NCBI GenBank assembly: GCA_021803575.1
Contig: JAJZLH010000012.1
Location: 1 to 51,438 of the forward strand
Reading direction: 5' to 3'
DNA: 51,438 nt
Origin: Bacillota bacterium
GTDB taxonomy: Bacteria > Bacillota > Sulfobacillia > JAJZYS01 > JAJZLH01
Positions within the stretch are counted from its first letter, which is position 1. Every line of letters begins with the position of its first letter. The position numbers and the translations under genes were made by a program. The notes beneath the pieces were generated by a model. The model did not search any database. It saw only the letters and a program-made list of their open reading frames with translations, and was not told the origin of the DNA. Shown in pieces: positions 2 to 44,779 of the stretch.

Positions 2-568
2 ATCCTGGTGCTCTTGCCGTTCATCGACCGCATCCCGCACCGCAAGCCGGCTGAACGCAAGGGCTATCTCTTCTCCGGCGGCGTGGTGGTGGCGGCCATC
101 GCCGTGCTCACCTACCTGGGCGCCGTCAACCAGGGCGTGGCCGCACCCGTGCAGGCCGCATCCAGCTACCTGGCCGTCAACGCCGCCACCAAGACGGCGA
201 CTCTCACCCTGGACGGCGGCTATGGCACCGAAAACGGCGGCTTCAACTTCAACGGGGCCTCGGCCGGTGCCATGGTGGTGACCATCCCCCAGGGCTGGAC
301 CCTGGACGTGGCCTTCACCAACGATGGCAGCCTGAACCACTCGGCCGCCATCACCGCCTCCCCCACCTCCTCCACGCCGGTGGTGGCCAGCGCCGAGACG
401 CCGGGTCCAACCCTGGGCACCGCCCCTGGCGGCAAGGCCAGTTTCACCTTCAAGGCAGCGACCGTCGGCAACTTTGTGATCGGCTGCCTGGTGCCTGGCC
501 ATCTCCAGCTCGGCATGTGGGCTAAGCTGGTGGTGGCTCCCAGTGGGGCGCCCACCATCAAGCTCTGA
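2..568 (+). CDS. C-terminal part of a cytochrome b-like protein fused to a sulfocyanin-like cupredoxin domain (5' truncated by window)
   Basis: The reading frame is open from the first bases, so the gene begins upstream; the GTG at 8 is probably internal. Numbering from that GTG, residues 1-20 (LLPFIDRIPHRKPAERKGY) look like the loop before the last helix of cytochrome b/b6 proteins, and residues 22-42 form one hydrophobic membrane helix. Residues 55-178 resemble sulfocyanin, a blue copper protein: FNFNG near 79-83, a beta-rich core, and copper ligand candidates H111, C160, H165 and M170 in the pattern CLVPGHLQLGM. The copper domain would sit outside the membrane, next to the quinol-oxidising cytochrome, and could receive electrons from it. 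Domain recognition is from memory of the families. The upstream part of the cytochrome is not visible. Confidence 0.72.
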   Translation: MLVLLPFIDRIPHRKPAERKGYLFSGGVVVAAIAVLTYLGAVNQGVAAPVQAASSYLAVNAATKTATLTLDGGYGTENGGFNFNGASAGAMVVTIPQGWTLDVAFTNDGSLNHSAAITASPTSSTPVVASAETPGPTLGTAPGGKASFTFKAATVGNFVIGCLVPGHLQLGMWAKLVVAPSGAPTIKL

Positions 569-666: not shown

Positions 667-1902
667 ATGAAGATGGCATCGCAGAGCCCTGCCAGCGGTG
701 AACTGATCAGCTTTGAGGGCGGCCAGATGCACACGCCCGACCGCCCCCTGGTGGCCTTCATCGAGGGCGACGGCATCGGCGTCGACATCTGGCCGGCCAC
801 CCAGGCCGCCGTGGACGCCGCCGTAGAGGCTGCCTACCATGGCCGGCGCCAGATTGTCTGGACCGAGGTGCTGGCCGGGGAGAAGGCCCACCAGCGGGTG
901 GGCACCTACCTGCCGGCGGCCACCTTGGAGGAGCTGCGCCGGGTGAAGGTGGGGATCAAGGGGCCGCTCACCACGCCGGTGGGCGGAGGTATCCGCTCCT
1001 TGAACGTGGCGCTCCGCCAGGAGCTGGACCTGTATGCCTGCGTCAGGCCGGTACGCTACTACCCGGGCGTGCCCAGCCCGCTCAAGAATCCTGAGCGGGT
1101 CGATATGGTGATCTACCGGGAGAACACCGAGGACGTGTATGCCGGCATCGAGTGGCAGTCCGGCTCGGCCGAGGCCGGCCGGCTGATCCGAAGCCTGCGC
1201 GATGAGCTGGGTGTCAGCATTGATCCCCAGTCCGGCGTCGGCATCAAGCCGATCAGCCCCACCGCCTCCAAGCGGCTGGTGCGGCGAGCGATCGCCTACG
1301 CTGTGTCGGCGGGCCGTAAGTCGGTGACGCTGGTGCATAAGGGCAACATCCAGAAATTCACCGAGGGAGCCTTCCGGGACTGGGGCTACGAGGTGGCAGC
1401 GGAGTTTTTGGGCCAGGTCGTGCTGGAGCGGGACCTCGATGGGCCGCCCCCCCCCGGCCAGGTGGTGATCAAGGACCGCATCGCCGACAACATGTTCCAG
1501 CAGGTGCTGCTCCACCCCGAGGCCTACGATGTGATCGCCACCACCAACCTGAACGGCGACTACCTGTCTGATGCCATCGCCGCCGAGGTGGGCGGCATTG
1601 GCATGGCACCGGGCGCCAACCTGTCCGACCAGGCGGCGATCTTCGAGGCCACCCACGGCACCGCGCCCCGCCATGCCGGCAAGGACGAGGCGAACCCGGG
1701 CAGCCTGATGCTGTCTGCGGTGATGATGCTCACGGCGATGGGATGGCAGGAGGCGGCGGCCATGCTGGAGGGCGCCCTGGCCCGCACCATCGCCTCAGGC
1801 GTCGTCACCTACGACCTGGCTGGCCCCGGCACCAGCCGGGTATCCACCTCGGCGTTCGCCCGGGCCATGATCTCGCGCATGCACCCAGAAGGAGGCAATT
1901 GA
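667..1902 (+). CDS. icd: isocitrate dehydrogenase
   Basis: A TCA-cycle enzyme that oxidatively decarboxylates isocitrate to 2-oxoglutarate. The 411-residue protein matches the E. coli Icd type closely: [20 protein letters not shown] (S111 is the equivalent of the regulatory Ser113), [33 protein letters not shown] and the C-terminal [16 protein letters not shown]. The residues that choose the coenzyme are unusual: R335-H336 replace the Lys-Tyr of NADP enzymes, A342 replaces Val, Y382 is kept, and the later Arg is G386. NADP versus NAD use is therefore open. ATG 667 follows GGAAGGA; ATG 673 is an alternative start. The gene is followed at once by mdh, suggesting an operon with malic enzyme and sucCD. 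Confidence 0.95.
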
Positions 1903-44461: not shown

Positions 44462-44779
44462 GTGGCCTACCAGACTCTGTTCCAGGTATCCGAGATACCG
44501 CTCGGCGAGGGCCGGGCCAAACCGGTCGACGACGAGCGCACAGTCGCCGTCTTCCACCTCGCTGACGGCTTCTTTGCCATTGACGACACCTGCTCGCACG
44601 CCCAGGCCTCACTCTCTGAGGGTGAGGTGGTGGAGCACACCGTGATCTGCCCCCGCCACGGCGGCCGCTTTGACCTCATGAGCGGGCGGGCCACCGGCCT
44701 GCCTGCCACCGCCCCGGTGGCCTCCTATCCGGTGCAGGTGGACGGGGAGAGCGTTCTGGTCGACTGGGAGGGTGGCTGA
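44462..44779 (+). CDS. Rieske-type [2Fe-2S] ferredoxin
   Basis: A 105-residue soluble Rieske protein. The cluster ligands are C44 and H46 (DDTCSHAQASLSEG), C63 and H66 (VICPRHGGRFD). It resembles the small ferredoxin components of dioxygenases (NirD-like fold). GTG 44462 follows the sufB stop directly. Its place in the operon after sufB is common; it may accept clusters from SUF or deliver electrons for cluster assembly. Confidence 0.9.
   Translation: MAYQTLFQVSEIPLGEGRAKPVDDERTVAVFHLADGFFAIDDTCSHAQASLSEGEVVEHTVICPRHGGRFDLMSGRATGLPATAPVASYPVQVDGESVLVDWEGG

Follow-up and report, generated by a model that had tools for sequence, protein, structure and literature searches.

The question raised by this locus is whether a cytochrome b can carry, on its own polypeptide, a copper domain at the place where its relatives carry heme c. 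The window, i.e., the whole stretch of 51,438 nucleotides that was analysed, is contig C3 of G000, a 1.5-Mb draft genome in 79 contigs with an estimated completeness of 97%. Nucleotides 2–568 of the forward strand form a stop-free frame of 188 residues, the 5′ end of which is cut by the contig start. This frame is the 3′ end of a gene, in which the end of helix F, the following loop, and helix G of a b6-type cytochrome b continue in-frame into a sulfocyanin (SoxE) domain. The features are as follows:

2–145, forward strand: 3′ coding part of cytochrome b, assigned by Pfam Cytochrom_B_C in the full-length orthologue, alignment, hydropathy, and charge count
within 2–145, forward strand: end of transmembrane helix F (residues 1–8), positively charged FG loop (9–22), transmembrane helix G (about 23–45)
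146–166, forward strand: short linker from helix G to the copper domain; the homology to the cytochrome b-c proteins of the relatives ends about here
167–538, forward strand: sulfocyanin copper domain (SoxE, PF06525; 59–63 bits, cut-off 21), rusticyanin-like by sequence and weakly so by predicted fold
338–340, forward strand: putative copper ligand His113, aligned with the conserved HS of rusticyanin
485–517, forward strand: putative copper ligand loop C162-LVPG-H167-LQLG-M172, aligned with CQIPGHAATGM of rusticyanin
566–568, forward strand: TGA stop codon of the fusion gene
667–1902, forward strand: isocitrate dehydrogenase gene (icd), directly 3′ of the fusion gene and used as a synteny anchor

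The Pfam SoxE match (PF06525) covers residues 56–179 of the window protein with 63 bits, and the fused domains reach 63 to 65 bits, above the gathering cut-off of 21. The scores against the NCBIfam sulfocyanin equivalog TIGR03094 are below the cut-off (51–60 bits vs. 168), as is that of the separate sulfocyanin of the window genome (80 vs. 168). Judged by these profiles, the fused domain belongs to the sulfocyanin family but is not an equivalog. The window protein contains the sequence FNFNGAS, which differs by one letter from the sulfocyanin motif FNFNGTS (PMC3750248). A full set of type-1 copper ligands (His, Cys, His, Met) is kept in all four fused copies found; copper loading is predicted. 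The original prediction had named the same set of residues, each numbered two positions too low (H111, C160, H165, M170); the correct positions are H113, C162 (nucleotides 485–487), H167 (500–502), and M172 (515–517). The structure model of the copper domain was of moderate quality (pLDDT 67), with rusticyanins and other cupredoxins as best matches at TM-scores of about 0.4, and that of the full-length fusion was poor (pLDDT 40). For the upstream part, residues 1–44 alone scored 17 bits against PF00032 (Cytochrom_B_C; E 0.01), which is below the threshold because only the end of the domain remains in the window; this region contributes to a match of 32 bits (cut-off 20.7) when the full-length orthologue is searched.

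Because the window genome lacks the sequence upstream of the fragment, the fusion was tested on the orthologues of two other species of this genus of uncultured Bacillota, G001 and G002, both deposited as "Bacillota bacterium" metagenome-assembled genomes (MAGs). The intact genes are located at L031 (JAJZLY010000020.1, G001; 85% identical to the window fragment) and L032 (JAKAUI010000045.1, a 193-kb contig of G002; 83% identical), and the two fusions are 92% identical to each other. Each is a single uninterrupted frame of about 515 codons that contains both domains, with neither a stop nor a new start between them. The G001 protein (L031 P0002) matched Cytochrome_B (PF00033) with 159 bits, Cytochrom_B_C (PF00032) with 32 bits, and SoxE with 64 bits, all above the cut-offs, so that the in-frame fusion of a cytochrome b C-terminus to a sulfocyanin domain claimed in the original prediction was confirmed. 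The Rieske gene and the N-terminal part of cytochrome b, both of which were looked for upstream, are present in L031 and L032. The Rieske gene lies directly 5′ of the fusion gene and encodes the cluster boxes CAHLQC and CPCHG. The earlier proposal of an unusual bc-type complex is supported as well. Purifying selection acts on both domains, as calculated for G001 versus G002 (dN 0.035/dS 0.463 and dN 0.077/dS 0.554). The Rieske protein (L032:8544–9080; L123:11639–12415) begins with a zinc-ribbon-like CSIC...CADC stretch, which reads CTRC...CPHC in G004; in L032, this start is followed by the twin-arginine stretch RRKFLRN.

The cytochrome b part of the fusion is most similar, among solved chains, to cytochrome b6. 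Two bis-histidine heme pairs are found in L031 P0002 (H-x13-H at position 103 and H-x14-H at 204), and their spacing is that of cytochrome b6. Six helices pass the hydropathy threshold and helix B was placed by homology, giving seven in total (A–G). The FG loop carries five Lys/Arg versus two Asp/Glu residues. With an odd number of helices and the N-terminus inside, the copper domain is predicted to face the outer (p) side, i.e., the side of the Rieske protein, in a topology similar to that of subunit IV of the b6f complex. The fusion protein contains no CxxCH motif. The PEWY motif of the Qo site is also absent from it and PLWF is found instead (approximately residues 292–297 of L031 P0002). 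This PLWF motif is common to the genus and most heme-c relatives of the order, with PAWY in G003 and G004 (noted at L031, L042, and L044); the acidic residue of the motif is missing independently of the heme-to-copper swap. Pfam places the fusion in both the cytochrome b and the SoxE family; two hallmarks of textbook bc complexes, the PEWY motif and heme c, are missing.

An orthologue was found in nine other genomes of the order (G003–G009, G012, and G014), the core of which is 51% to 67% identical, and in all nine a CxxCH domain follows helix G. The alignment of the window protein with these relatives stops at about residues 48–57, and the tails diverge after LTYLGA.xQG. Outside the order, CxxCH was located at the same place in G021, G030, G195, G269, G315, and, more distantly, in G042. 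In a tree built from the cytochrome b core, the copper forms group in a single branch nested within the heme-c forms and sister to the G005–G014 group (support 98/96), for which a single replacement of heme c by copper is the parsimonious reading. The related Bacillota cytochrome b-c fusions (G003–G009, G012, G014, G021, and G030) share with the copper form the same cytochrome b, the position after helix G, and the predicted topology, in which the tethered redox domain faces outward. They differ in that they carry heme c (CxxCH) instead of blue copper and are accompanied by a ccm operon and a cytochrome c domain on CoxII, both of which are missing here. The QcrC protein of Bacillus is a fusion of subunit IV to cytochrome c. 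As in the window fusion, its redox domain is tethered after helix G, with heme c there and blue copper here.

The gene neighborhood differs between the genus and its relatives. The locus is the same, as the neighbors are shared: mrp precedes it, and icd, mdh, and sucCD follow. In G005, genes for CcmE, an ABC ATPase, CcmB, and CcmC are located between the cytochrome b-c gene and icd, and the layout in G003, G004, and G007 resembles this region in the order of open reading frames and the position of the PF01578 match. In L032 and in the window, no ccm operon is present between the two genes and icd directly follows the fusion gene. In profile searches, none of the three genomes of the genus gave a match to PF01578 (CcmC/CcmF/CcsA), whereas all 12 other genomes of the order had one. 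The same distribution was obtained for the cytochrome c families PF13442 and PF00034 (no real match in three out of three genomes of the genus, matches in 12 out of 12 others), and these two profiles revealed no cytochrome c1/f-like subunit in the genus. A weak cytochrome c match in G002 (C38:53794, E 0.009, with two in-frame stops) was rejected because it is out of register with the coding frame in which it lies. ResB was uninformative, since it is missing from nearly all relatives as well and the maturation system of G005 is of the Ccm type. Estimated completeness is 96% to 97% for the genomes of the genus, all three of them MAGs or drafts, and all genomes compared are drafts or unnamed; a divergent protein with a single CxxCH could be missed by such profile searches. 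From these searches, c-type cytochromes and their maturation machinery appear to have been lost in the genus, a wider event that lay beyond the reach of the original prediction. The genomes of the genus have approximately 1.5–1.6 Mb (G000, G001, and G002) versus 2.0–3.5 Mb in the rest of the order, so that cytochrome c may have been lost in the course of a more general reduction.

The aa3 oxidase of the genus differs as well. Its CoxII retains CuA (ligands GECAQFCGVGHYLMHM in L105:4914–5807; CoxB TIGR02866 with 198 bits, cut-off 147.7) and ends after it, with a Pfam match to COX2 only. The CoxII of G005 and G006 extends into a cytochrome c domain (Pfam COX2 and Cytochrom_C in the case of G005).

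A second copy of the fusion is found in the window genome on contig C39 (L005), the first 127 bases of which are the same as those of C3. The copper domains of the two copies are 78% identical, and the C39 copy keeps all ligands. When nucleotides 1–568 of the window and of L005 are compared, near-identical and divergent blocks alternate after the 127 identical bases, as if by gene conversion. Neither the upstream cytochrome b part nor the partner Rieske gene was found in the window genome assembly, which would be expected if two near-identical stretches collapsed and were dropped from the bin. A small Rieske protein encoded at 44462–44779 of the window was considered as the partner and rejected, since it is of a different type and lies at the end of an apparent SUF operon. 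All three genomes of the genus also encode a separate sulfocyanin, which in the window genome is a lipoprotein with a lipobox-like signal (G000:C54). The fused copper domains form one clade, which adjoins the separate sulfocyanin of the genus and one long-branched G004 sequence (support 90/92); because of long branches, this placement is tentative. Two other genes were noted in the window genome. L106:1693–3454 (G000:C10) comprises a second, divergent cytochrome b gene and a Pfam-negative partner membrane protein, with matches in G000, G001, and G002. L005:2678–3436 (G000:C39), located 3′ of the second fusion, encodes a secreted-looking, cupredoxin-like protein without a Pfam match.

The explanation that fits these results best is a swap of heme c for blue copper on the quinol-oxidising subunit, linked to the loss of c-type cytochromes, which we regard as probable. 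The seven-helix b6-type cytochrome b with the type-1 copper domain tethered at its C-terminus after helix G would form a Rieske/cytochrome b complex with the Rieske protein encoded just upstream. Menaquinol or another quinol would be oxidised at the Qo site, where the Rieske cluster takes up one electron. The cluster would then reduce the fused copper centre, which would play the role of cytochrome c1/f or of the fused heme-c domain of the relatives. From there, the electron could reach the CuA centre of the aa3 oxidase, either directly or via the separate sulfocyanin lipoprotein, so that electrons would flow from QH2 via the Rieske cluster and the tethered copper to CuA. In the ancestor of the genus, a cytochrome b-c protein would have exchanged its heme-c domain for a sulfocyanin domain, and this exchange may have been accompanied by the loss of the adjoining ccm operon, the cytochrome c domain of CoxII, and the other detectable cytochromes c. 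It seems likely that c-type cytochromes were abolished altogether and that the chain from quinol to oxygen, consisting of the Rieske/cytochrome b complex and the CuA oxidase, is complete by virtue of the domain exchange; complex III would then be a b-Cu and not a bc complex. Several points count against this explanation. The PLWF motif is unusual for a Qo site, although the heme-c relatives share it, the structure models are weak, and the window gene lacks its upstream part. The separate sulfocyanin persists, so that the fused domain may share the role of acceptor. The copper acceptor would lie on the quinol-oxidising subunit as originally predicted; the replacement of a mobile carrier does not necessarily follow: the domain takes the place of the c subunit and the sulfocyanin lipoprotein remains.

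The persistence of the separate sulfocyanin in all three genomes, with a lipobox-like signal on the copy of the window genome, would also fit a fused domain that serves as a docking or storage site for copper, the real acceptor of the Rieske electron being the lipoprotein. We consider such a function quite improbable, as the four ligands are conserved, the domain is under purifying selection, and it replaces a heme-c domain in a genus in which no c1/f-like subunit was found for the role of acceptor. Even less credible, and in our view next to excluded, is an assembly chimera or annotation artefact that joined the end of cytochrome b to a sulfocyanin gene. The start of the window copy at a contig edge and the identical first 127 bases of C39 would be in line with an artefact. 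However, two other species with separate assemblies have the same junction, one of them on a 193-kb contig, as do the two divergent copies of the window genome. Two near-identical upstream copies would be expected to produce such a shared contig start.

The direction of electron flow has to be weighed as well. In Acidithiobacillus ferrooxidans, the bc1 complex that serves Fe(II) oxidation has been proposed to operate uphill. The fused copper might correspondingly act mainly to let electrons in from Fe(II) or a sulfur compound, with the complex running uphill toward the quinone. Sulfocyanin and rusticyanin have been tied to iron oxidation in acidophiles (PMC4062416, PMC3750248), and the free sulfocyanin lipoprotein and the second fusion copy of the window genome would be compatible with such a role. 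On the other hand, the copper domain replaces a heme-c domain that is present at this position in all relatives found, and the fusion gene adjoins genes of the TCA cycle rather than of iron oxidation. We therefore consider uphill flow unlikely, albeit the least unlikely of these three alternatives; the forward and the uphill direction do not exclude each other. The preferred reading remains the forward transfer from the Rieske cluster to the tethered copper.

Copper-based acceptors are known from other respiratory chains. In the SoxM supercomplex of Sulfolobus acidocaldarius, the sulfocyanin SoxE is associated with cytochrome b and a Rieske protein (PMC3062577, PMC3750248). As would be the case here, its Rieske/cytochrome b unit passes electrons to sulfocyanin instead of cytochrome c; the archaeal sulfocyanin is a separate protein, whereas here it is part of a bacterial cytochrome b polypeptide. 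Halobacterium salinarum has a halocyanin-CbaD fusion and no identified cytochrome c (PMC2674319, PMC8305020). There, too, a blue-copper carrier is fused to a respiratory complex, in this haloarchaeal case on a subunit of the terminal oxidase and not on the quinol-oxidising cytochrome b. The sulfocyanin of Sulfobacillus thermosulfidooxidans has been proposed to function in Fe(II) oxidation, and the organism was reported with cytochrome c (PMC4062416). It is likewise a blue-copper protein of the SoxE family in an acidophilic member of the Bacillota, which is stand-alone rather than fused. The literature searched, with subscription papers mostly outside its scope, describes no cytochrome b-sulfocyanin or other cytochrome b-copper fusion. 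The genome comparison drew on 399 genomes from the phylum, on 41 relatives, and on 84,980 genomes that were scanned for close relatives; outside the phylum, it extended to close relatives only.

If correct, the exchange would amount to a natural experiment: within one protein, the electron acceptor of a bc-type complex would have changed both metal and fold, with the rest still recognisable. It would permit asking directly which properties of its partner the Rieske protein depends on and whether a mobile carrier can be replaced by a tethered one. The exchange would also show a concrete way for a bacterium to dispense with the costly machinery of cytochrome c maturation. It would further link bacterial respiratory chains to the copper-based chains of Sulfolobus and the haloarchaea. 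The respiratory chain of this genus seems to run on copper where its relatives use heme c.
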